Below, in pieces: positions 3,122 through 21,360 of a stretch of 34,983 bases of DNA (its first letter is position 1; each line of letters begins with the position of its first letter). The translations under genes were made by a program, and so were the position numbers. Source of the DNA: Flectobacillus sp. (lineage in GTDB: Bacteria > Bacteroidota > Bacteroidia > Cytophagales > Spirosomataceae); NCBI GenBank assembly GCA_023255485.1, contig JALRIJ010000003.1, positions 1 to 34,983 of the forward strand. Direction: 5' to 3'. The notes under the pieces were generated by a model that saw only the letters and a program-made list of their open reading frames with translations, was not told the DNA's origin and did no database searches.

Positions 3122-3598
3122 TTATTCTCCTTCTGCTAAGATTGCTAGCTCCGTCAAATCATTTCGATAATTAACCGTTTCAGTGTCAACGATTTGATTA
3201 ATCTGTTTCATTACTTCAAAAAAAGTCTCCAATTTTTCATTACCTATCGTTTCATACACTAGCTTGTTAAACAGTAGGACACCTTGCTTGGCTTCTTCTC
3301 GTTTTTTCTTTCCATATTCTGTCAGAAAAACATTCACAACACGACGGTCATCTTTATCAGCCACTCGCTCAATCCACTTTTTATCCTCCAGCGATTTTAG
3401 GATACGAGTTAAACTTCGAGCTTCTAATCCTAGAGCAGGAGCAATTTTGGTAGCAGGAGTTCCATTTTTATCTATATTCAAAAGAACATAGCCTATTGCC
3501 ATGGTCATGTCAAATTGAGCAGCGTATAAATTATACATTCTACTAATGCCATGCCAGCCAGCCTTAATGTGATGGTCAACGGTTTTATCTGCTTTCAT
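3122..3598 (-). CDS. MarR-family transcriptional regulator
   Basis: Winged-helix dimeric DNA-binding regulator, here inferred to control the adjacent acyl-CoA dehydrogenase gene and itself. Starting at ATG 3598 gives 158 residues, normal for MarR. An in-frame ATG at 3652 would add 18 residues but would run through the dyad at 3641-3654, so the inner start is preferred. After an N-terminal dimerisation helix, the recognition helix region TPATKIAPALGLEARSLTRI lies near 47-66. It is followed by LEDKKWIERVADKDDRRVVN, whose D-D-R-R is the MarR wing signature. The C-terminal helix completes the dimer. A ligand such as an acyl-CoA or free fatty acid would fit the context, but the sequence does not show it. 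The stop codon lies about 40 bases from the palindrome before the next gene. Confidence 0.9.
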   Translation of the reverse strand: MKADKTVDHHIKAGWHGISRMYNLYAAQFDMTMAIGYVLLNIDKNGTPATKIAPALGLEARSLTRILKSLEDKKWIERVADKDDRRVVNVFLTEYGKKKREEAKQGVLLFNKLVYETIGNEKLETFFEVMKQINQIVDTETVNYRNDLTELAILAEGE

Positions 3599-3640
3599 AT
3601 ATATGTATTCATTAAAAAGTGGGAAAAGGCACTTATAATA

Positions 3641-3654
3641 GTATGCACGCATAC
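3641..3654. promoter_or_regulatory. Second copy of the MarR-type operator, before marR
   Basis: GTATGC-AC-GCATAC at 3641-3654 is a perfect dyad 43 bases upstream of the preferred MarR start. It shares TATGCAMGCATA with the palindrome at 3058-3081, which suggests autoregulation. The overlap with a possible longer reading frame is one reason to choose the inner start codon. Confidence 0.55.
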
Positions 3655-3673
3655 CATACTTTTTGATATAAAA

Positions 3674-3696
3674 AAAACAGGCTTATTTCCTGTTTT
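3674..3696 (-). terminator. Hairpin terminator, minus strand
   Basis: AAAACAGG (3674-3681) pairs with CCTGTTTT (3689-3696); on the minus strand the hairpin is followed by a run of seven T. It would end the transcript of the small secreted-protein gene at 3830-4231, leaving a 3' tail of about 130 bases. Confidence 0.55.
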
Positions 3697-3829
3697 CTTA
3701 GCTATGTGAAGTTAATCAAAATTTATGAAACTCGAAACGTTTTTCCCTAGATTAACTCAGGAATGTAAGCATGTGACAGCGGTATTGACCTGCTATTTTC
3801 AGAATTCATGTAAGTCTAATAACGACTTA

Positions 3830-4231
3830 CTAAAACATCCTTTCAACTTTTTTCACCGATACTTTAAAGCGTTTTTCATCTGCTCGATTTCGGATTTTAA
3901 CAATATACTCACCCGATGTAAGGGCATACAATGGCCAGATAATCGCTTCAGTTTTGCTTTTCAGCACGATTTCACAAGGAACACCCATCCCCGAAATAGT
4001 ACAAAGCATAATTTCAGCCTCTTGAACATTATCAGCCCGTACACGTAACATTTCGCCATCTTCCGAGAGATGTACCGTTACAGCATATAGTTTTTTTTCG
4101 CCTTTAGGATTGACCTTAAATGCTGCAATTTCTTTTGGCCTGCTGCCTGCCTGTACCTCTGTAACCGACATATACATACCTACCAAACAAAGCGTTGTTA
4201 TCTTTAGAAGACAAATACAACTTTTTTTCAT
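3830..4231 (-). CDS. Small secreted protein of unknown function
   Basis: A 133-residue protein that I do not recognise. It begins with MKKSCICLLKITTLCLVGMY, a lysine-rich start followed by a hydrophobic stretch, and has a likely signal peptidase site after VQA (about residue 28), so it is probably periplasmic or exported. The mature part of about 105 residues is rich in beta strand. Its end, LTSGEYIVKIRNRADEKRFKV, resembles the last strands of Por/T9SS sorting domains and of small DUF3244-like beta-sandwich proteins (S/P-G-x-Y-x-V/I-K-I). However, the YPNP-type start of a sorting domain is absent and there is little upstream sequence to be cargo. It has its own hairpin terminator downstream. 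The next gene upstream (4463-4999) also encodes a small envelope protein but is 231 bases away and has its own terminator, so the two are not obviously one operon. Confidence 0.7.
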   Translation of the reverse strand: MKKSCICLLKITTLCLVGMYMSVTEVQAGSRPKEIAAFKVNPKGEKKLYAVTVHLSEDGEMLRVRADNVQEAEIMLCTISGMGVPCEIVLKSKTEAIIWPLYALTSGEYIVKIRNRADEKRFKVSVKKVERMF

Positions 4232-4405
4232 CGTTCAATTAATTATAAAGCCCAATAGCGTCCCTAACGGTTCGTTATATTAAGCAAATTGTAAGGATTG
4301 TTTTTATAAAGCAGGTGCGTCTATGTCTTTTAAATCATTGACATTTGTTATTCTTTTTGGTAAAAATATGCATTTTTAATTAAATAAAAGTCATTCCATA
4401 AAAAA

Positions 4406-4440
4406 AAGAGTCTATGGATAATTGATTACCATAGACTCTT
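4406..4440 (-). terminator. Intrinsic terminator after the 178-residue lipoprotein gene
   Basis: AAGAGTCTATGG (4406-4417) and CCATAGACTCTT (4429-4440) pair perfectly around an 11-base loop; on the minus strand a run of T follows. It lies 22 bases past the stop codon at 4463. Confidence 0.8.
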
Positions 4441-4462
4441 CAAAAAGTACAATATTTATTGC

Positions 4463-4999
4463 TTATTTTCCGACTGTATTTCCTCCTAATGTTGTTACTT
4501 TAATTTTCAATTTATTAAAGACTTTCTTCGAAAGCATTAGACGAACTCTAGACTTTTTATAAATTACTAAGTAACGATTGCCTTCATAATCTAATCTTGA
4601 AAAAAGCGGATTACCTGTTTTATCTACTAATTGATAGAAAAACTCACCCTTTTCTCCTGGAATAGGAGCAAAACGTAATTCGCTATCTTGTGAATTTTTC
4701 ACGAAAGAAACCAGAAAATGGCCATTTTCTTCTCGTTGAATTACCCCTGGCGTATTTTTTTCCAGCGAGATACGTTGAATATAGCGACCACTTTTAAACA
4801 CAACCTTACCCGATTGAATATTTGCTTCGCTTGCCGGAATTTCTCTTTCTAAATAAAGAGGATTGTCATTATAAAACTGAATACGAGGAATATCCAAATC
4901 TTGTTCCTGAATCTCGTGCATTAAAGAACCTGTCAAATACACCTTTTTCTGGCAGCTACCAAGGCTTAGTATGGCTAAAAAAAGCAAGACTTTTTTCAT
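4463..4999 (-). CDS. Putative lipoprotein of unknown function
   Basis: A 178-residue protein beginning MKKVLLFLAILSLGSCQKK. The lipobox LGSC puts the lipidated cysteine at residue 16, so it should be anchored in an envelope membrane. The rest has no domain I recognise. It contains many alternating hydrophobic and polar residues (for example KVVFKSGRYIQRISLEK and FFYQLVDKTGNPLFSRL), which suggests a beta-rich fold, and a basic C-terminus with KKSRVRLMLSKKVFNKLKIKV. The start at ATG 4999 is fixed by the signal sequence. The 162 bases upstream include a short dyad, ATGATT-GT-AATCAT at 5055-5068, which could be an operator. The gene ends in its own terminator. Confidence 0.75.
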   Translation of the reverse strand: MKKVLLFLAILSLGSCQKKVYLTGSLMHEIQEQDLDIPRIQFYNDNPLYLEREIPASEANIQSGKVVFKSGRYIQRISLEKNTPGVIQREENGHFLVSFVKNSQDSELRFAPIPGEKGEFFYQLVDKTGNPLFSRLDYEGNRYLVIYKKSRVRLMLSKKVFNKLKIKVTTLGGNTVGK

Positions 5000-5161: not shown

Positions 5162-7501
5162 TTAGTGTCCTTTCACAAAATGACGATATTCGCTACATTC
5201 TTTCAACACTTCTGCTTGATACGTTGAATTGGCAAATCGGCTTTTCAATAACGCAAAAGCCTTTGTGTAAGTATTGTCGTAACGTTTTCTTTCTATTTTT
5301 TGTTGGAAAGCGTCGTAATCTTCATTTTCTCCTTGTTCGAGTAAGCTAGCATAAATCGAATAACTTGCTCGTTCACAAAGAGCCACTCCATAACATGCTT
5401 TGGCAGCAAACGCATTATCCGAAGATTTCATGGTTTGTTCAAAATAATCTTTCGCCTTCTGTGCTGTAAAATAGTCTGTCGTATAAGAGTCTTTACTTTT
5501 ACCATTATAACTGCTAATATCAGACACGCCACGCCCACGCTTCGTCATCACCCAAGCATTTCCCCAGTAGCTGATATTATACTCTCCACAAGCCAGCAGA
5601 TAGGTAGCTTCAGCATCATTCGGATTTTTCTTAATTTTTTCGCTTAACGTGTACAGTTGCTGAGCAAAACTTGCGGGAGTGTACGTATTGCGAGTTTTTT
5701 TGTTTGTAAGTGTTACAGCAAAAGGATCATTATTGAAGTAACTTGTCCAAAGTTCTTCCTTGAAAACCGTCGGATTTACCTTCGCCCAAGCCATAGCCGC
5801 AACAGCATAGTTATGTTCAATCAAGGCTCTTCGTCCCAAAAGAGTATAGAGGAAATTAGAGTCAAAACCAACTATTTTTTGTAAACGTTCATCCATTGGA
5901 GTTTTATCTTTCGCCTCAACATACGCAATTACGGCTTGTATCGTTGCCATCGAGGTAGTATCTTCAATAGCATACATATCCTTCTGTGACATATAACCGC
6001 CATATTCAGCACTTGAATTAACCTGATAGGTGTTCATGACACGATATAAATACGCTTTTGCGATTGCAAATGGGGCAAGGGCTGTCGTTGTATTTTTCTT
6101 AGCAGAGCAACTTGAAAACCAACCCGATTTTTTTTCCTCAGAAACTTCTGTTTGAAGGTATTTAGTAGCGATAATCGACCCAGCCTCTGTGAGGGCATTA
6201 CTCATTCTAAAGTCAGTTGGCTTTCTGAACTTTTCCAACAAAGGCACAAGAGTATCCTCCAAGCTAGGTGTGATAACCTTTGCTTCGTTCACCGTTAACA
6301 ACAACTCCTGAATCAGTAGTTGCTTTTTCAAGCCTTCGTTATTTGTTTGCGTCGCTTTAGCTTTGGCCAGAAAGTCATTTGCACTTGAATAGTCTTGCTC
6401 TACATAGGCAATATAAGAAGCGGCTGTTAACCAAAATGCTTTATTAGGCAAGGCAGGGTTGTCAATACATTTAGCTGTAAAATCTTTCAACTTAGTCCAA
6501 TAAGCAAGTGATTTATCCTTGTTAGCCTTTACGAGTGCTTCGTCAGGTTCTTCTCCCCAGAAGCTTACTTGCTTGTAATAGAATTTTTCATTCTTATTAA
6601 TTTCTCTTGCCATAAGCAATTCTATCAACGCATTGCTAGGCTCAAGAGCTACAATTTGCTCTAAAGCATCAATACCTTCTACAGCATCACGAATTCCATT
6701 GAAAGCATAAACGGCGGCTTTTTCATGATTATTTCGACATAGCTTCAAAGCTCCTTCTTGGAATCCAACCCCACGACTACGGATACTCAAATCAGCCTCT
6801 CTTCTACGAGAAGGGCAACGGTCAAAAACCTGGGCAAAGTCATAAAATGCTTGAACAGAATCTCCTAACACCAACTCCGCTCCTGCTTTTCTCGACAAAG
6901 CCCAATCTGAGATATAGGTTTTCTTGGCTAAAGGAAGCACCTTCGTTTTGTATATACGAATCACCTCGTCTAACTTACCCTGCATTCCTGCGGCCTTTAC
7001 TGCTTGAAAAGCATAGCGTTCACGAATAAAAGGGTCTTTTACTGAGGTCAAAATCGCCAAGGGTTTAGTAGCCAATTGTTCTAAAGCAAGGGTATCAACC
7101 GTACTTTCTGCGAGGTAGTCTTCGCTAGTGGTACTCGTGCCATCCAGTTCTTTCACATACGCTAAATAAGTCAATGCCTCCTGATTATTCGTTTTTTTGA
7201 GGTATTGCTCCAAAGCCGTCCCTTTTCCATACAGCGACTTTGCTACTTCTTTTTCAGTAAGCTTATTCTTACAATAAGCAACCCATGCTTTTTCGTTTTC
7301 TAAATCTCCAATATCCAAAGTATCATCGTAGTTATCTTCATCATAGAAAAAACTATTTGATAAGTGATAACGCTTATCTCCTACCTGAATGTGACTACTT
7401 TCTGGCATAAAAAAGCTAAGGAATTCGTCATAATCAGCCATTCCTGGGCCACAAGCTAACAAGGCAAAAATTATCAATAACTTTGCTGATCTACTTGACA
7501 T
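5162..7501 (-). CDS. Large helical-repeat lipoprotein, unknown function
   Basis: Read from ATG 7501 this gives 779 residues. An earlier in-frame ATG (7573) would add 24 residues ahead of the signal sequence and is unlikely. The N-terminus has a hydrophobic stretch ending LLAC, a lipobox with the lipidated Cys at residue 17 (MSSRSAKLLIIFALLACGPG). After a short beta-like segment around GDKRYHLSNSFFYDED, the rest is almost wholly alpha-helical. Many paired helices have A/L-rich TPR- or SEL1-like spacing (for example EDYLAESTVDTLALEQLATK, AAVYAFNGIRDAVEGIDALE, DAEATYLLACGEYNISYWGN). I recognise no named domain. Its start overlaps the stop of the upstream lipoprotein gene by 11 bases, which implies translational coupling and a shared complex or pathway. 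Helical-repeat lipoproteins often act as scaffolds or glycan/protein-binding surface subunits; the role here is unknown. Confidence 0.8.
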   Translation of the reverse strand: MSSRSAKLLIIFALLACGPGMADYDEFLSFFMPESSHIQVGDKRYHLSNSFFYDEDNYDDTLDIGDLENEKAWVAYCKNKLTEKEVAKSLYGKGTALEQYLKKTNNQEALTYLAYVKELDGTSTTSEDYLAESTVDTLALEQLATKPLAILTSVKDPFIRERYAFQAVKAAGMQGKLDEVIRIYKTKVLPLAKKTYISDWALSRKAGAELVLGDSVQAFYDFAQVFDRCPSRRREADLSIRSRGVGFQEGALKLCRNNHEKAAVYAFNGIRDAVEGIDALEQIVALEPSNALIELLMAREINKNEKFYYKQVSFWGEEPDEALVKANKDKSLAYWTKLKDFTAKCIDNPALPNKAFWLTAASYIAYVEQDYSSANDFLAKAKATQTNNEGLKKQLLIQELLLTVNEAKVITPSLEDTLVPLLEKFRKPTDFRMSNALTEAGSIIATKYLQTEVSEEKKSGWFSSCSAKKNTTTALAPFAIAKAYLYRVMNTYQVNSSAEYGGYMSQKDMYAIEDTTSMATIQAVIAYVEAKDKTPMDERLQKIVGFDSNFLYTLLGRRALIEHNYAVAAMAWAKVNPTVFKEELWTSYFNNDPFAVTLTNKKTRNTYTPASFAQQLYTLSEKIKKNPNDAEATYLLACGEYNISYWGNAWVMTKRGRGVSDISSYNGKSKDSYTTDYFTAQKAKDYFEQTMKSSDNAFAAKACYGVALCERASYSIYASLLEQGENEDYDAFQQKIERKRYDNTYTKAFALLKSRFANSTYQAEVLKECSEYRHFVKGH

Positions 7502-8561
7502 TCTGAAATAATTGTGAAATTTGTTCATAAGAGTAACTAGATAAACTGGATTCATCGAGATGATACAAGGCAAATGTAAGTTTTTGATTTGAGATTTTCT
7601 TACACAATAAAGAAGAACCTTTCAAAAGATTATCGAATGGTACTTCTTCTACCTTAATGACATCGCCTTTTCTCAGGGCCAGCCCCAAAGCAACGGTATC
7701 TTGTTGAAGGACAAATTGATGTGCAGTTTGTATATCAAACGGTAGTTTTTTAGACAGTAATACTTTCTCGGTCAGGTTATTAATAAAATACAGGAAGTGA
7801 TTATTACGATACACGATTCCCCAATGAAAAGCTGGCATAACCAAATCGAGGGATAACGGATAGTCTTCCAACTCGTCAATATATTTATCTAAAGTAGCAG
7901 GTTCATAAATCGAATTTAAGCGGTTAAGTTCCTGCCAATCAGACATATTATAGCTCATTAGCATACCCCTATCTACGGGAGGCACGCCTGTTATACTTCG
8001 ATATTTAATTTGATGTAAGCGGATTGTTGCAGACAAAGCAGGTATTTTTTGTTTTAAAGTAGTGAGTAACAAAAAATAATTACGTCGAGTTTTATTCGTC
8101 CAATCGCAATCAATTTGAATTTCTGGCAGTGTCCTTGAAGAAGTTTTCCAAACATTATCCGATAAGTCTTGTACTTTATCCACTATACGTTCAGCTAATT
8201 GACCTACCTGTGATTTATTCAGTTGTAACAACGTTCTATTCGTAATATATACAACAGGGACAACCCGAATTCCCTTAGGCAAAGGAGATTTACTCGTAGT
8301 AAGAGCTTTTGCGACAGGCTTCTTCGCACGTACGTCCCAATCTACGTCAAAAAATTTGACATATAAAGTCGAAATTTTATTATCCGATAGTATTTTTTCT
8401 TCTTTACTAGAAAGTGAAAAATCAGTCTTCCAATAATAAAATGCAGAAGTCACCACCCGCTCCTTTTTCGTATGTTCACAAGCCCAGCAACTACTCAAAA
8501 GACTCACTAGTCCGAAGACCAAGAGTTTATTTTTTTGAAACCATTGACGCTGTAACCTCAT
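7491..8561 (-). CDS. Putative lipoprotein with GH18/DUF3142-like TIM barrel
   Basis: A 356-residue protein with a basic N-terminus, hydrophobic core and lipobox LSSC (Cys at 25). The body has the strand pattern of a (beta/alpha)8 barrel. TLYVKFFDVDWD lies near 65-76, GIRVVPVVYI near 97-106 and LPEIQIDCDWT at 145-155. GMLMSYNMSDW follows at 199-209 and LSLDLVMPAFHWGIVYR at 236-252. The third block lies where GH18 enzymes have DxxDxDxE, but the catalytic Glu position is Thr155. The whole arrangement also resembles DUF3142-type proteins. It may be a non-catalytic or differently catalytic barrel. The gene overlaps the siroheme gene upstream by 35 bases and the helical-repeat lipoprotein gene downstream by 11 bases, so the three are one transcriptional unit. 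The family assignment is tentative; lipoprotein status is fairly secure. Confidence 0.7.
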   Translation of the reverse strand: MRLQRQWFQKNKLLVFGLVSLLSSCWACEHTKKERVVTSAFYYWKTDFSLSSKEEKILSDNKISTLYVKFFDVDWDVRAKKPVAKALTTSKSPLPKGIRVVPVVYITNRTLLQLNKSQVGQLAERIVDKVQDLSDNVWKTSSRTLPEIQIDCDWTNKTRRNYFLLLTTLKQKIPALSATIRLHQIKYRSITGVPPVDRGMLMSYNMSDWQELNRLNSIYEPATLDKYIDELEDYPLSLDLVMPAFHWGIVYRNNHFLYFINNLTEKVLLSKKLPFDIQTAHQFVLQQDTVALGLALRKGDVIKVEEVPFDNLLKGSSLLCKKISNQKLTFALYHLDESSLSSYSYEQISQLFQNVK

Positions 8562-9111
8562 TAAGTACCCTTATTTTTTCTTGGAAATCGCCTTTAATCG
8601 ATTTTCTAATTTCTCGTAAATTTTCTAACAATGTTTGGACGTTTTCTGGGATAATATCATCTAAAAACTCCCTCATCCGTTTTGCCATGGTAGGCGACTT
8701 CCCATTGGTAGAAATAGCTATTTTCAAGTCTCCCTTTTGGACAATAGAACCCAAGTAAAAGTCGCACAAATGGGGGGTATCTGCCACATTACAAAGGAGA
8801 TGGCGTGCTGCGGCAGCTTCTTTGATACTTGCATGCAAGTTAGGATTATCCGTTGCCAAGATAACCACATCTCTGCCATCTAAATCATCCCATTCAAAAT
8901 TTCTATGGCAAAGCACCACCTGAGGATAATCTTTGACAAACTCCAGTAATTCAGGAAGAAACATCCCCGCAACGACTGTCACTTTGGCTTCAGGACTGTT
9001 GTTTAACACAGCTGATAACTTTTCCAGACCCACATTTCCCCCTCCGACAATGAGCAAGTTTAAAACCTCTAACTTTAAAAAAACAGGAAATAATTTATTT
9101 TGACTCTCCAT
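8527..9111 (-). CDS. Precorrin-2 dehydrogenase / sirohydrochlorin ferrochelatase
   Basis: NAD-dependent oxidation of precorrin-2 to sirohydrochlorin, usually followed by iron insertion, in siroheme synthesis for sulfite or nitrite reductase. The 194-residue protein matches the CysG N-terminal/Met8p/SirC family in length. A Rossmann motif LIVGGGNVGLEKL is at 20-32. NVADTPHLCDFYLGSIVQKG follows near 106-125, then LKIAISTNGKSPTMAKRMRE. These are the family's characteristic dehydrogenase/chelatase segments. It has no methyltransferase domain, so a separate CobA-type enzyme must act before it. Start ATG 9111 gives the correct N-terminus (LFPVFLKLE). It is the first gene of a unit whose next two genes encode lipoproteins and overlap it, an unusual partnership. 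Cysteine-synthesis genes at 23882-25624 are the other sulfur genes in the window but are not linked to it. Confidence 0.9.
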   Translation of the reverse strand: MESQNKLFPVFLKLEVLNLLIVGGGNVGLEKLSAVLNNSPEAKVTVVAGMFLPELLEFVKDYPQVVLCHRNFEWDDLDGRDVVILATDNPNLHASIKEAAAARHLLCNVADTPHLCDFYLGSIVQKGDLKIAISTNGKSPTMAKRMREFLDDIIPENVQTLLENLREIRKSIKGDFQEKIRVLNEVTASMVSKK

Positions 9112-9453: not shown

Positions 9454-12120
9454 ATGAGCACCATTACTCAGAAATCTTTTTTTGCTTTGTTGTTCTTAGC
9501 TTCATCGCTAGTTACATGGGCAACTACTTCATCTAACAATGAAGGTAAAGCACCGGGAAAATCAAGCGTGGCTGCTGTGCCTGGTCCACCTCAAATTGTG
9601 GATATGAAACCCGTTTCGTGTGGTTATCAAAATCCCAATGACCCTAGTGCAATCATCGAGCTTAAAGCTACTGGTTGTATTGGTGGCAATATGAAATGGT
9701 ACGATTCTAATGACGTTTTCTTAAAGGAAGGGGTAAATCCATTTTACATTACAATCACTGCGGATAAAGAAGTTTATGCTACTTGTACAGACAATGCCGG
9801 CGAAAGCTTGAAGTCAAACCGAGTAGTAGCTAAATATGTTAAAGGTGTTCCTACTGCCCCAACCATCACGATTGAGGGTGACTTAAGATATGCTGTTAAG
9901 TGTGAAGGACAGTCGATGACACTAAAATCAAGTGAAACCAATAGTAGTTATATCTATGAATGGTTTAATACCGCAGGGACTGGAGCTGTTAACCATATCA
10001 TCGACCAAGGTGGTACAGGGATATCAAGCATTACAACAGGAAGAAATGGAGCATACAATTTAACCGTCTATACACCAGAATGTCCTTGGGCTAAACGCCA
10101 ATCAGTTAATACTGTATATGCTAACTTTTTAACGAATCCATCAAAACCTAAAATTACAGGTGATTCTACTTTCTGTGGCGATAAATCAACTTCACTAAAA
10201 GCCGACAGTTCTAAGTTTTCGCAGAAATACAGATGGTTCATCAATGGAACAAAACAAGATACCATTAAATACAGTGCTGTAAAGTTTATCAATAAAACAG
10301 CAAACGTTCAAGTTCAAACTTACTTAGAGCAAGAAGGACAAACTTGTGTTTCGCCTATTTCAGATATTTATAAAGTAAGAGCCTTAGAGGCATCTCCAAA
10401 ACCAATCATTACTTCTTCTAAAAAAGGAGCTGCGATTTGCCAAGGAGATACATTAACGCTAACAGCGACAACTGCGGCAGCTTACAAATGGAACACTGGA
10501 GCAACAACAGGCTTTATTGCAGGAATTAAAGCAGTAGGAAAATATGCAGTTCAGACTTATAGTAAAGATGGCTGTATTTCCCCAACATCAGACACTGTTT
10601 CAATTACCGTTTATACAAGACCAGTAACGCCAACAATCACTTCATCTAAAGCAAATGCAACGATTTGCCAAGGAGATACGCTAAGCTTAACGTCAAGTAC
10701 TGGCTTAAAATATTTATGGAGCGATGGAAGTACCAATCGTACAATCACAGGAATCAACAAAGTAGCTACTTATACCGTACAAACAATTGACATCAATGGT
10801 TGTGTTTCGGATAAATCTGCCGCAACAACTATTAAAGTAAATGCTTTACCAGTAAAGCCTGTTATTACGGCTAGTGGTGCAACTTCATTCTGTGATGGTT
10901 TCTCTGTAACATTGACTTCTACCCCTGAGCTTACTTACACATGGAGTAATTTAAGTACGACTCGTAGCATTGATGTAACGAAAAGTGGCGTGTTCTCTTT
11001 AACAGTGAAAGACGTAAACGGATGTGTATCTCCTAAATCAGATGCAGTAACCGTAACCGTTTATGCTCTTCCTGCAAAACCAACTATTACAGTAAAAGGA
11101 GACGGAAAAACAACTTTCTGTGCGGATAAAACAGCAACATTAGAGGCATCTGACTTGACAAATGGAGAGTTAACTCGTTTCAGATGGAGTACTACAGAAT
11201 CCTCTAAAGCGATTACAGCTAAAACTTCTGACAAATACAGCGTAGTGGTGATAGACCCTCGTGGTTGTGTATCACCAACGTCAGATGTTGTAACAATTAC
11301 CGTATTACCATTACCAGCAGCTCCGACCGTTACGTTTGATGGTGCTGAGTTTGGAGGAAAATCAATTGCTATTTTCTGTTCAAGAGATAACACAGATTAC
11401 ACGAAAGTAAACGGTGTTAACATGCTTGCTACTAGCAATTACGAAGTAACATGGAGTGATGGTACTGTTGGAAAAGCATTAAGTGCGGTTAAAAAATCGG
11501 GAGATTATACTGCGATTGCTACTCAAAAATATACCGATGGTAATGCTTGTGTTTCGTTAAAGTCAGCAGTATTGACAGTATTAGTGAAAGAAAACCCAGA
11601 TGTAGTAGCATCAGGTGCTACGATTGCTAAAGATGGTACGTTTGCTTTAAAAGCGGTAAACTTCCCTGATGGAGGAAACTATGAGTGGAAATATAGCGGT
11701 GCTATTGTAACTGATGCGAATAATGTTGCAGTTACAACAGCTAGTGTAAAAGTTTCTAAATATGGCGACTACATTGCGAGAAGACAAATTGTTTACACAG
11801 TGCCTGCTCCAACAAATCAGCTTGTATGTTACTCTAATTATGTTGGTCCTTTTACATTTAAAGAAGACCCTGATTTTAGAGGATTATCCATCTATCCAAA
11901 TCCAGGAAATGGAGCATTTACAGTAGAAGCGTTAGATAACTTGAAGAATGTTGAAATTTCAATTTATGATTTATTCGGCAGAATCATTTGGTCTAAAACG
12001 TACACAAGTCTTACAACAAAGACTCCTGTTGATTTAACTAACCAACCAATAGGAACTTACTTATTACGTTGTAAAGCAGATGGATTCGATATCACGAAAA
12101 GAATCATCACGAATAAATAA
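9454..12120 (+). CDS. Secreted Ig-like repeat protein with T9SS sorting domain
   Basis: An 888-residue exported protein. Residues 1-23 are a signal peptide (hydrophobic FFALLFLASSLVTWA). The mature protein is a chain of Ig/PKD-like beta-sandwich units. Each has a Pro-rich entry (PxKPxIT), a Cys-x-G/D-x-x-x-x-L strand, a central Tyr/Phe-x-Trp strand, a Y-x-V-x-x-x-D/K-x-x-G-C-x-S-P-x-S-D segment and an exit strand. This leaves two Cys per unit, probably disulfide-linked. At least four good units lie between about 10400 and 11320, with more divergent ones before and after. The C-terminal 80 residues are a type A Por sorting domain: LSIYPNPGNGAFTVEAL, then VEISIYDLFGRIIWSK, then PIGTYLLRC and IITNK. 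This predicts T9SS export across the outer membrane and A-LPS anchoring or release. No enzyme domain is seen, so it is likely an adhesin, stalk or matrix protein. Confidence 0.88.
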   Translation: MSTITQKSFFALLFLASSLVTWATTSSNNEGKAPGKSSVAAVPGPPQIVDMKPVSCGYQNPNDPSAIIELKATGCIGGNMKWYDSNDVFLKEGVNPFYITITADKEVYATCTDNAGESLKSNRVVAKYVKGVPTAPTITIEGDLRYAVKCEGQSMTLKSSETNSSYIYEWFNTAGTGAVNHIIDQGGTGISSITTGRNGAYNLTVYTPECPWAKRQSVNTVYANFLTNPSKPKITGDSTFCGDKSTSLKADSSKFSQKYRWFINGTKQDTIKYSAVKFINKTANVQVQTYLEQEGQTCVSPISDIYKVRALEASPKPIITSSKKGAAICQGDTLTLTATTAAAYKWNTGATTGFIAGIKAVGKYAVQTYSKDGCISPTSDTVSITVYTRPVTPTITSSKANATICQGDTLSLTSSTGLKYLWSDGSTNRTITGINKVATYTVQTIDINGCVSDKSAATTIKVNALPVKPVITASGATSFCDGFSVTLTSTPELTYTWSNLSTTRSIDVTKSGVFSLTVKDVNGCVSPKSDAVTVTVYALPAKPTITVKGDGKTTFCADKTATLEASDLTNGELTRFRWSTTESSKAITAKTSDKYSVVVIDPRGCVSPTSDVVTITVLPLPAAPTVTFDGAEFGGKSIAIFCSRDNTDYTKVNGVNMLATSNYEVTWSDGTVGKALSAVKKSGDYTAIATQKYTDGNACVSLKSAVLTVLVKENPDVVASGATIAKDGTFALKAVNFPDGGNYEWKYSGAIVTDANNVAVTTASVKVSKYGDYIARRQIVYTVPAPTNQLVCYSNYVGPFTFKEDPDFRGLSIYPNPGNGAFTVEALDNLKNVEISIYDLFGRIIWSKTYTSLTTKTPVDLTNQPIGTYLLRCKADGFDITKRIITNK
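10396..11320 (+). repeat. Tandem Ig-like coding repeats of about 76-85 codons
   Basis: Repeated units within the T9SS protein gene. The 19-base string CGATTTGCCAAGGAGATAC occurs identically at 10433-10451 and 10661-10679, exactly 228 bases (76 codons) apart, within otherwise diverged units, which points to a relatively recent unit duplication or conversion. Two further units follow with conserved GGxTGTGTxTC-type coding for G-C-V-S. Confidence 0.75.
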
Positions 12121-17013: not shown

Positions 17014-19458
17014 TTAGTGAAATCCCTGTTGTTGTTTTTCGATGAGAGCTAATTTGGCTTGGTATTGAGGTAAAAAACGCTGATAATCGGTAAGCGATAA
17101 TTTTTGTAAAAGGAGTAATGCATCACTCGCATATTCTTTCATACCAACCTCTAAAGCTTGAAGGATATATATATGGTATAATTCGGGACTATCTTTACGC
17201 CACTTCAAAGCATTTGCAATATACTGGTAAGCCTTTTCAGGATGTTTATGTTGATTAAAAACAGTACAAATTTTCGACAACAAACTTGCATCTAAAGGAG
17301 CTTGTTCAACGGCTTTTGTCAGAGCATCCTCTGTACTCAACTTATCAATCGCCAAATAACTAAGGGATTCTTTTTTAATTAACGTATTCAAGAGCATTCC
17401 ATAATACTTATTTTTCTTTGCCGTTGTGTCGCCCGTTGCCCAAGCCTGTAGCTGTTCAAAGGTTAACTGTTTGTCCCCTTTATAATATTGTTGAATAGCA
17501 TGAGCAAATTCCAAGTCTTCGGCATATTGGTCGTTTTCTGCACGATTAGCTAAGGCTCTAAAATCCACTTGCTCACCTTGGTTTTTCACAAACATCGCCT
17601 GATTATATAAGAAAGAAAAGTTAGGGACATTCAGAATGGAATCGCTCAAGTCTGTCTTATATGTTGGTATGGTTGGAGCAACTCCACCTTTAAGTTTCAA
17701 GGCAAGTAAGTTAGCCTGATAGGCATCGTCAGCCAATGTCTTTTCTTCTTGAATTAACTCCTTGATAGTTTTTTCTTTTCCATTTTTCGCCCAAAAAGCT
17801 AATACATTCGCTTCTGGAACAGCCTTATCGTTAGCATTGTCAGCAGCTAAATCATAGAAAATTAGTGCTGAGTCTAACACATGGCTTTTATCATAGAGGT
17901 AAGCTAAATTATTTTGTAACTCGCCACTTTGTGGAAAACGCTTTACTCCTTCTTTTAGCGTAAACAGGGCATCAAAAAAGCGTTCTCCATCGTAAAAAGA
18001 GCGAGCTAATCCTTCATAAGCAAAGGGAGATGGATTTTTAGCTAAGGCTTTTTTAAAGTACAAAGCGGCAGTCTCATTATCGTGTTGTAAAATAGCTAAA
18101 CTCGCTAGTGCATAATTCGTTTTGTGATTTCTGCCCTCAAACGTAGCTGCAATTTTATACTGAATTTCTGCATATTGATAATCTTTTGCACTGGTATAAA
18201 AATCCCCTAATGCGTTATAGTAAGCGGCTTTTGCTTGATTTATGGTAAAAAACTCCTTTAAGGATAACAGAGCAACAACTGCTAAAATCCCTGCAATACG
18301 AATTGCAGAGAGCGGTAAACTCATGGGCTTAAAAACGACCTGATATACATTTAAACCCTGTTTGAACAAAGGCAAAAAGTTGAAAATGGCATACAGTAAA
18401 AACAAGATACCCATCACTAAGTGCGTATAAATGACGGCATCTTCCAGTACTTCAACTAAAGGGTCATTGGCTGTAGCGAAGGCATACGCACAGGTCAATA
18501 TGGAAATAGTTGCTAAACTAATATAGCTAAAAACACCTCCATTTTCAAGACGAAAGCTTGCTCCCAAACTTTTCCCCCGTTGAACAATTCCCCAAATTCC
18601 TAAAAAGGTAGAACAGATCAGTAAAAAGAAAGGATTGATGTATAGAATGTCCCAATCGGTTGTTCCATTTTTATACCAATAAAGCACTAGCAGGTTGAGT
18701 GAATAGAAAAGACTTATCACGGAAAAGTTTAATAACGACTTTGGGCTTTGAGCGGTTGTGGTGATAAATAAAAAGCCTCGTAAGACTTCAAAGGAAACGT
18801 AAAAAATAAAGCAACACGTAAGAAGCAGCCCAATTCCAACTAAATAAGCCGCAAAGTGCATTACTGGAGTGGGCATTGGAGAGTAATGAGAAACCCCAAA
18901 TCCAATGGAAAAGGTAAGCACCAAAAATGAAATAAAACGTACAGAGAATGTAATATCTGGCTTGAACGCATGATAAAAATAGCTAAGTCCACCTAACAAA
19001 AAGATGATGAATAGAGAGAGGTAACTCCCTGAAATATTGAGTAATAAATCCCAATGAAACAAGACTAAAATCTCTACTACAAAGGCCATTGCTAACAAGT
19101 ACCAAAAGCGAGGTAACACCGTAATACTTGCCAAAAATAAAGAAAAAGACCACGCAAAACCCAATACGAAAATCCATGAAGCGGTGATGTTAGGACTCAT
19201 AATCGTTGCAAGAAACTGTCCTGTAACCAAGTAGCTTTTGATTGGGATACTCAACACCTCACCTGTCGCCTTGAATTGTTCTAACAAGGCACTCACCTCC
19301 CCTTGTTCAGAAAGTACTTTCCAGTCTATGACATTCAGCAAGTCGTGGTAATAATAAAAACCAAAAACTCCGACGGCAAGCACTAATTGAATAAAGGCGA
19401 CAAGAAGTTGTATTTTGTTTGATTTTGTCCAATTCGTCCAAAATGAAAGTGACTCCAT
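17014..19458 (-). CDS. Polytopic membrane protein with C-terminal TPR domain
   Basis: An 814-residue protein of unknown function. Residues 1 to about 400 hold roughly ten hydrophobic segments. The first is IQLLVAFIQLVLAVGVFGFYY (about 16-36), then an 45-residue loop outside the membrane, then several closely spaced helices (for example WIFVLGFAWSFSLFLASITVL, YLLAMAFVVEILVLFHW, SLFIIFLLGGLSYFYHAF). From about 405 to the end are TPR-like helical pairs: AAYYNALGDFYTSAKDYQYA, ALAKNPSPFAYEGLARSFYD, and FPQSGELQNNLAYLYDKSHV with canonical alanine and tyrosine positions. TPR repeats suggest a protein-binding platform joined to the membrane. The start ATG 19458 is supported by a hydrophilic N-terminus before the first helix. 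A lone ABC ATPase follows downstream, separated by a hairpin, and shared transcription is not certain. Confidence 0.8.
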   Translation of the reverse strand: MESLSFWTNWTKSNKIQLLVAFIQLVLAVGVFGFYYYHDLLNVIDWKVLSEQGEVSALLEQFKATGEVLSIPIKSYLVTGQFLATIMSPNITASWIFVLGFAWSFSLFLASITVLPRFWYLLAMAFVVEILVLFHWDLLLNISGSYLSLFIIFLLGGLSYFYHAFKPDITFSVRFISFLVLTFSIGFGVSHYSPMPTPVMHFAAYLVGIGLLLTCCFIFYVSFEVLRGFLFITTTAQSPKSLLNFSVISLFYSLNLLVLYWYKNGTTDWDILYINPFFLLICSTFLGIWGIVQRGKSLGASFRLENGGVFSYISLATISILTCAYAFATANDPLVEVLEDAVIYTHLVMGILFLLYAIFNFLPLFKQGLNVYQVVFKPMSLPLSAIRIAGILAVVALLSLKEFFTINQAKAAYYNALGDFYTSAKDYQYAEIQYKIAATFEGRNHKTNYALASLAILQHDNETAALYFKKALAKNPSPFAYEGLARSFYDGERFFDALFTLKEGVKRFPQSGELQNNLAYLYDKSHVLDSALIFYDLAADNANDKAVPEANVLAFWAKNGKEKTIKELIQEEKTLADDAYQANLLALKLKGGVAPTIPTYKTDLSDSILNVPNFSFLYNQAMFVKNQGEQVDFRALANRAENDQYAEDLEFAHAIQQYYKGDKQLTFEQLQAWATGDTTAKKNKYYGMLLNTLIKKESLSYLAIDKLSTEDALTKAVEQAPLDASLLSKICTVFNQHKHPEKAYQYIANALKWRKDSPELYHIYILQALEVGMKEYASDALLLLQKLSLTDYQRFLPQYQAKLALIEKQQQGFH

Positions 19459-19738
19459 AATTAATTTATTAATATTTCAAGAAATGACTTGAGAAATGAT
19501 GAGCGATCCGTAAAAGCAATTGATGACATTTGGAAAAGAAATAAGACGTTCATTTCCAATTCACCAAAGGCGAAATTACCGATTCCATAACGATTTAAGT
19601 TCTTATTTGATATAGGAAAAGGAAAATACTTCAAAAATATTGCTTTATTAGAGTACCAAGGAAAGCTTAAAACTAAATAACATTCAACGAATCCTATACT
19701 TTTTAAGCAAAAAACTGGTAAAAATACAAAATAGAATA
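19459..19738. other. Divergent intergenic region before atpD
   Basis: AT-rich gap carrying the promoter of the minus-strand membrane-TPR gene, and followed by the atpD promoter. On the minus strand TATTTTTG (19639-19632) fits the -7 consensus, with a CTTG 17 bases upstream of it, but that would leave a 5' leader of about 165 bases. No RNA gene or conserved small frame is seen. Confidence 0.35.
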
Positions 19739-19769
19739 TTGGTATTCTGAGATTTACAGAGTAATTTTG
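19739..19769 (+). promoter_or_regulatory. Predicted promoter of atpD-atpC
   Basis: TTG at 19739-19741, 20 bases, then TAATTTTG at 19762-19769 match the Bacteroidota consensus (TTG-N17-23-TAnnTTTG) fully at the -7 element. The predicted transcript starts near 19776, leaving a leader of about 67 bases before the atpD start. Confidence 0.6.
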
Positions 19770-19815
19770 CAGTCAAATGCTGGGGCTTATCATTTTTTCA
19801 GTCCCAAACACTTGA

Positions 19816-21360
<1,545 letters not shown>

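Follow-up and report, generated by a model that had tools for sequence, protein, structure and literature searches.

A conserved, overlapping gene pair of Bacteroidota predicted to encode a GH18-fold barrel protein and a TPR-like solenoid protein

Genes at the locus

A stretch of 34,983 nucleotides from Flectobacillus sp. (contig JALRIJ010000003.1, hereafter "the window," to whose full length our coordinates refer) carries three overlapping open reading frames (ORFs), all on the minus strand. The first, at 8527..9111, encodes a precorrin-2 dehydrogenase/sirohydrochlorin ferrochelatase of the CysG N-terminal type with 194 amino acids (aa), and is called the siroheme gene here. The second, at 7491..8561, encodes a 356-aa envelope protein that is predicted to be a lipoprotein and to have the TIM-barrel fold of glycoside hydrolase family 18 (GH18). 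The third, at 5162..7528, encodes a predicted helical solenoid resembling tetratricopeptide repeats (TPRs). We refer to the latter two as the barrel and TPR genes. Together they form a genuine system that is widespread and has no name, and their link with the siroheme gene is ordinary.

An earlier reading made from the sequence alone had recognized all three ORFs, as well as the overlap of 35 bases between the siroheme and barrel genes (8527..8561). Both are real, but that reading probably understated the second overlap as 11 bases (7491-7501). The TPR gene probably starts at the ATG at 7528 rather than at 7501, because its closest relatives begin at the matching codon. From 7528 the protein begins MNKFHNYF, and these relatives begin MNKLKNYI and MNKLTNSF (comparison with loci L002-L004). 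The start supported by homology yields a protein of 788 aa, instead of the 779 aa counted from 7501, and a barrel/TPR overlap of 38 bases (7491..7528). Residues of the TPR protein are numbered from 7501 below.

Distribution of the barrel-TPR pair

When one genome of each species was scanned, at least 565 stretches in public genomes matched the barrel gene, and 80 loci were kept. The barrel alignment holds the window and 70 of the 80 barrel loci (71 members), and the TPR alignment holds the window and 51 of 63 TPR loci (52 members). Omitted loci were mainly truncated, N-containing or oddly started. Occurrence was assessed in a class-level sample of 197 Bacteroidota genomes and in 101 genomes from the family to which the window belongs.

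The barrel and TPR genes are a co-inherited, adjacent and overlapping pair across many Bacteroidota, and the evidence for this is strong. The TPR gene is present in 66 of the 80 barrel loci by blastp, and in one more (L080) by profile. Five of the 13 remaining loci (L027, L034, L050, L071 and L073) end 0-1089 bases past the barrel gene. The other eight are long enough to include a TPR gene (L026, L030, L046, L048, L049, L051, L052 and L057), and it is found elsewhere in all eight genomes. In 4 of the 66 loci (L012, L032, L060 and L064), the genes are apart or interrupted, with 209-4651 bases from the barrel stop codon to the opening of the TPR frame.

In the class sample, the barrel profile matches 41 genomes and the TPR profile 42. 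Four of the TPR matches are weak (G003, G005, G007 and G184; E-values 5e-5 to 7e-4) and were set aside as generic TPRs. All 38 genomes with a strong TPR match have the barrel, and 38 of the 41 barrel genomes have the TPR gene (Fisher p=1.6e-37, or 1.7e-32 if the four weak matches are counted, in both cases uncorrected for relatedness). The two genes are adjacent on the same strand in 35 of these 38 genomes, and three genomes (G095, G104 and G062) have two such pairs each. The sequence-only reading had held that the two genes belong together and that both families are uncharacterized, and both statements stand: the genes are usually adjacent rather than apart, and neither family has a name in Pfam or NCBIfam. 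About one in five of the sampled class genomes has the pair; we found no stated function, and literature searches found nothing on this barrel-TPR pair.

Plasmids gave no match to the barrel protein. Related pairs are present in metagenome-assembled genomes labelled Spirochaetales (L056), Chlorobiota (L060) and Azovibrio (L062). The last label looks like a binning error, given the resemblance of L062 to L058.

Conservation of the gene overlap

An overlap of 32-47 bases, mostly of 35 or 38, is present in 49 of the 66 loci that hold both genes. As a control, only 6 of 426 other same-strand neighbor pairs in the same loci overlap by 26-50 bases (Fisher p 5e-46, with relatedness uncorrected and start codons chosen by rule). 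The overlap is kept even though the TPR proteins share just 19-50% identity with that of the window, and it is not due to chance. Such a conserved long overlap offers a natural setting in which to test whether translational coupling extends past the usual overlaps of 1-4 bases.

Fold and active site of the barrel protein

The AlphaFold model of the barrel has a mean predicted local distance difference test score (pLDDT) of 95.1 and a predicted template-modeling score (pTM) of 0.89. Its best Foldseek match is SleL (E 4.3e-11), and VIA-align superposes it on a chitinase with a Z score of 19.8 over 285 residues (root-mean-square deviation, rmsd, 3.9). At E<=0.001, 39 of 40 PDB matches are chitinases or other GH18-type proteins, as judged by entry title or known identity, and so are all 50 VIA-align matches. 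From this model we are confident that the protein has the GH18 (chitinase/SleL) fold. The sequence-only description of a TIM-barrel-like lipoprotein of 356 residues is thus confirmed as to the barrel and can be narrowed to the GH18 fold.

Sequence comparisons give fainter signals. The Pfam model of GH18 (PF00704) does not match the window's barrel at E<=1, and it matches 2 of the 71 members at E<=0.1 (best 0.025), short of the cut-off. The family of unassigned function DUF3142 (PF11340) matches residues 123-177 of the window's barrel with 14.3 bits, below the gathering cut-off of 30, and 12 of the 71 members at E<=0.1 (best 8e-4). DUF3142 gave no hit in 99 genomes of the phylum, but the control genomes were equally silent, so that this count carries no weight. 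Sequence searches for solved relatives returned only chance-like or designed-TPR matches.

In GH18 enzymes, the glutamate of the DxDxE motif donates the proton, and the N-acetyl group of the substrate is held by the motif aspartate together with a tyrosine. In the modeled barrel, strand 4 (residues 148-151) ends in the sequence QIDCDWT (residues 149-155, encoded at 8097..8117), which lies at the place of this motif. Residues D151, C152, D153 and W154 are invariant in all 71 members. Position 155, the place of the catalytic glutamate, is threonine in 48, serine in 22 and asparagine in one, so that the DxDxE glutamate is absent throughout. Y204 is present in 71 and N205 in 69 of the 71 members (7947..7952); these residues follow strand 6, at the place of the GH18 M-x-Y-D/N motif. 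Further invariant residues are Q149, T179, R181, Q184 and N216, and H183, D300 and E305 are nearly so. When aligned by hhalign with GH18 proteins from related genomes, IDCDWT is paired with IDIDWE at low probability.

Architecture of the TPR protein

The model of the TPR protein is all-helical and of fair confidence (pLDDT 84.5). In Pfam, the window's protein matches TPR_17 alone, and weakly (E 0.23). TPR_2 matches 11 of the 52 members at E<=0.1 (best 3.5e-7), and TPR_16 matches relatives with E-values down to 4.5e-8. The top VIA-align match of the model is the TPR domain of OGT (Z 11.3, 293 residues, rmsd 10.1), and its neighbors are TPR solenoids with Z scores of ~8-11 that include LbcA and SprE. 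Because such scores are found among helical repeats, they show architecture, not kinship. The model indicates that the protein is a TPR-like solenoid of antiparallel helix pairs. Two of its cysteines, Cys17 (codon 7451..7453) and Cys769, are invariant in all 52 members; Cys709 is conserved in 48 and Cys255 in 47.

Lipidation and anchoring

The barrel protein of the window fits a lipobox (a PROSITE-like pattern) at Cys25 (LLSS-C25), as do 38 of the 71 members in total. Only 7 of the 52 TPR proteins fit the strict pattern, and many relatives have a cysteine without a classical lipobox. In the window's TPR protein, LLA-C misses the strict pattern because, on inspection, a lysine lies 10 residues before the cysteine. 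The term lipoprotein, applied to both proteins by the sequence-only reading, is therefore well supported for the window's barrel and weaker for the TPR protein. Since the invariant first cysteine of the TPR protein often lacks a lipobox, it may have a role besides lipidation.

In five Runella loci (L006-L010; for example, L007:8507-11029), the barrel has no such cysteine and forms the C-terminal part of a frame of 841-885 codons. The N-terminal part is a membrane domain of ~480 residues with 7-9 hydrophobic segments. Relatives of this domain are found in 52 of the 101 family genomes, mostly as frames of ~480-600 residues, and one stands alone in the window's own genome (G000 contig C248, 397-1845; L121). 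Pfam searches gave nothing convincing, either for the membrane domain in Runella or for the relatives that stand alone. The Runella fusion is another way of anchoring the barrel. Because it exchanges a lipid anchor for a protein resembling those of the inner membrane, the barrel presumably works in the periplasm and not on the cell surface.

The siroheme gene and other neighbors

The product of the siroheme gene is readily classified, as it scores 112.8 bits with TIGR01470 (cut-off 62.3) and lies above the cut-offs of both PF13241 and PF14824. It was not found in any of the 80 barrel loci when neighborhoods were checked. Although the gene is present in 100 of the 101 family genomes and the barrel gene in 49, the two lie within 1 kb of each other in only one of these 49, the window's own. 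In 11 other family genomes they share a contig at a distance of 12-46 kb (coordinates read by eye).

These data bear on whether the three ORFs constitute a unit that joins siroheme synthesis to both envelope proteins. The exact 35-base overlap and the shared contigs speak for such a unit; the overlap, however, is seen in the window's genome alone, and the neighborhood counts run against it. Other arrangements also argue against it. Locus L002 keeps a block with the order barrel, TPR, 178-aa lipoprotein, 133-aa protein, MarR and 599-aa protein, with a different gene upstream, and in L100 the siroheme gene adjoins a gene related to the divergent one at 9454-12120. The window is therefore the junction of two older blocks. 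A three-gene unit is very improbable, and the siroheme gene is an incidental local neighbor with no part in the function of the pair. Of the two possibilities raised by the sequence-only reading, a joint unit and mere hitch-hiking in an operon, it is the second that agrees with the distribution.

Clustering of neighbors across loci gave no gene present in more than 17, and a third partner beside the pair was rejected. The commonest neighbors, named by eye from their sequences, are RecQ-like (17 loci), sugar-isomerase-like (13) and AroQ-like (12), and look like local synteny. In the window, the pair is followed at 3122-4999 (minus strand) by genes for a predicted 178-aa lipoprotein, a 133-aa exported protein and a MarR regulator. 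The same order occurs only in L002 and L003, and these genes are not part of the wider pair. Both L002 and the window (17014-21360) also have genes for an 814-aa protein and an atpD-like protein (93% identical) near the pair, so the wider region is loosely conserved.

Possible functions of the pair

Our best explanation, offered tentatively, is that the genes encode a self-contained envelope pair consisting of a glycan-binding, GH18-derived pseudo-glycosidase barrel and a TPR scaffold. Both proteins would be exported and would face the periplasm from an anchor in the envelope. The barrel would grip an N-acetylated glycan, either peptidoglycan or an exported polysaccharide, and the TPR solenoid would hold the barrel and present it, or the glycan bound to it, to a further envelope machine. 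The overlap of the genes would couple their translation so that the two proteins are made together. That they are exported, join in a complex and bind glycan, and that the solenoid is a scaffold, is inferred. A binding role is preferred over an unusual enzyme because the acid is lost while residues of the cleft are kept, as in chitinase-like lectins. The fuller proposal is plausible, if somewhat less secure: that this is a widespread, undescribed two-protein system of Bacteroidota in which a former hydrolase, bound to a TPR solenoid of its own, serves as glycan receptor or guide, the 32-47 base overlap couples translation, and in Runella fusion to a membrane protein has replaced the lipid anchor.

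Several observations weigh against the preferred explanation. The profile-profile match between the barrel and GH18 is weak (probability 7%, E 0.005), so their kinship rests on the fold, and another residue could offset the lost acid. No natural barrel-TPR fusion was seen. The conserved long overlap points to translational coupling but not of the best-documented kind, as coupling is best documented for overlaps of the -4/-1 type (PMC10666635). Three genomes match the barrel profile but not the TPR profile (G031, G081 and G102, the last with a 43-residue frame), and three others hold the two genes on separate contigs (G016, G162 and G192). In G043 there are two additional TPR copies that have no barrel with them, and G082 keeps an intact barrel gene while the only TPR copy found there is decayed.

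Details of the last two genomes are as follows. The extra copies of G043 stand in tandem (L123:3824-8450), and a normal pair is present elsewhere in that genome. On contig C4 of G082 (34076-37219), stop codons have ruined the barrel and TPR genes alike, which looks like a joint loss, and the intact second barrel is on C67.

The main rival, which we consider somewhat unlikely, is that the barrel is an active glycosidase or sugar-modifying enzyme with a non-canonical acid and that the TPR protein regulates it. The barrel has more invariant residues than retention of the fold needs, and the TPR domain of PgaA raises both activities of PgaB (PMC9384988). Opposing this are the threonine, serine or asparagine at the acid position in every member and the fact that clustering of the loci revealed no recognizable polysaccharide synthase or porin gene as a recurrent neighbor. 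If the pair instead serves as an adaptor for peptidoglycan hydrolases, the TPR protein would deliver enzymes of the cell wall to a protease or to a machine for synthesis, as LbcA or NlpI does, and the barrel would sense the wall. This is unlikely. The best Foldseek match of the barrel, SleL, is a lytic enzyme of the spore cortex, which is peptidoglycan, and the TPR model has LbcA among its structural neighbors (Z 9.7, 460 residues, rmsd 16.5). LbcA is an outer-membrane lipoprotein with 11 TPRs that activates CtpA (PMC8764530). Z scores of ~10 are nevertheless common among helical repeats, and the clustering recognized no protease gene as a recurrent neighbor.

That the two genes are mere operon partners, co-transcribed for products that act apart, is quite unlikely. 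The lack of a fusion and the few genomes with a barrel but no TPR gene agree with this idea, but co-occurrence holds even when the genes are separated (8 of 8 genomes), and the overlap is conserved. More improbable is that the TPR protein is an accessory of the type 9 secretion system (T9SS) akin to SprE/PorW. The T9SS is widespread in the phylum, whereas the barrel is present in only 41 of the 197 class genomes. A SprE chain (8gl8_I) does rank fourth in Foldseek (E 2.4e-3; VIA-align Z 9.9, 381 residues), and SprE, a lipoprotein with TPRs, belongs to the T9SS translocon (PMC10994853). However, the TM-scores are 0.15-0.18 with rmsd 12.9-23, and the profile of the TPR alignment found no SprE chain (8gl8) at E<=1.

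If the barrel is a true pseudo-glycosidase with a TPR scaffold, the pair would bring a new glycan-handling module to the cell envelope of Bacteroidota and would clearly illustrate how the fold of an enzyme can be reused for binding.

Comparison with known systems

The barrel shares with GH18 chitinases and N-acetylglucosaminidases, such as SleL, YdhD and the Chromobacterium violaceum chitinase, a predicted TIM barrel (residues 34-356), the site of the strand-4 motif and the Y-N pair after strand 6. Unlike these enzymes, it has no catalytic glutamate in any member and, for the window's protein, no PF00704 match at E<=1, and identity in the structural matches is ~7-16%. Chitinase-like lectins (SPG-40/MGP-40, insect IDGF2 and AgBR1) also have the GH18 fold and are among the structural matches. 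They are secreted proteins of animals with no known TPR partner, and their hallmark is a lost catalytic acid with a retained sugar cleft. The rest of their motif differs from the QxDCDW[T/S] of the barrel family. PF11340 shares a stretch of weak profile similarity with the barrel, but the score is less than half of its cut-off.

Two kinds of TPR system bear comparison. In the export of poly-N-acetylglucosamine (PNAG) by PgaB and PgaA, a sugar-active barrel works with a periplasmic TPR scaffold (PMC9384988). PgaB, however, combines a deacetylase domain with an active hydrolase, and PgaA doubles as the export porin; neither feature is seen in the barrel-TPR pair. The LbcA-CtpA and SprE/PorW systems involve long TPR lipoproteins that act as outer-membrane adaptors (PMC8764530, PMC10994853). 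They differ in that no sequence relation to them was found and in that these adaptors work with a protease or with the T9SS translocon rather than with a GH18-fold barrel. Assignable to neither family, the barrel and TPR proteins have their nearest working analogues in PgaB/PgaA and LbcA/CtpA.

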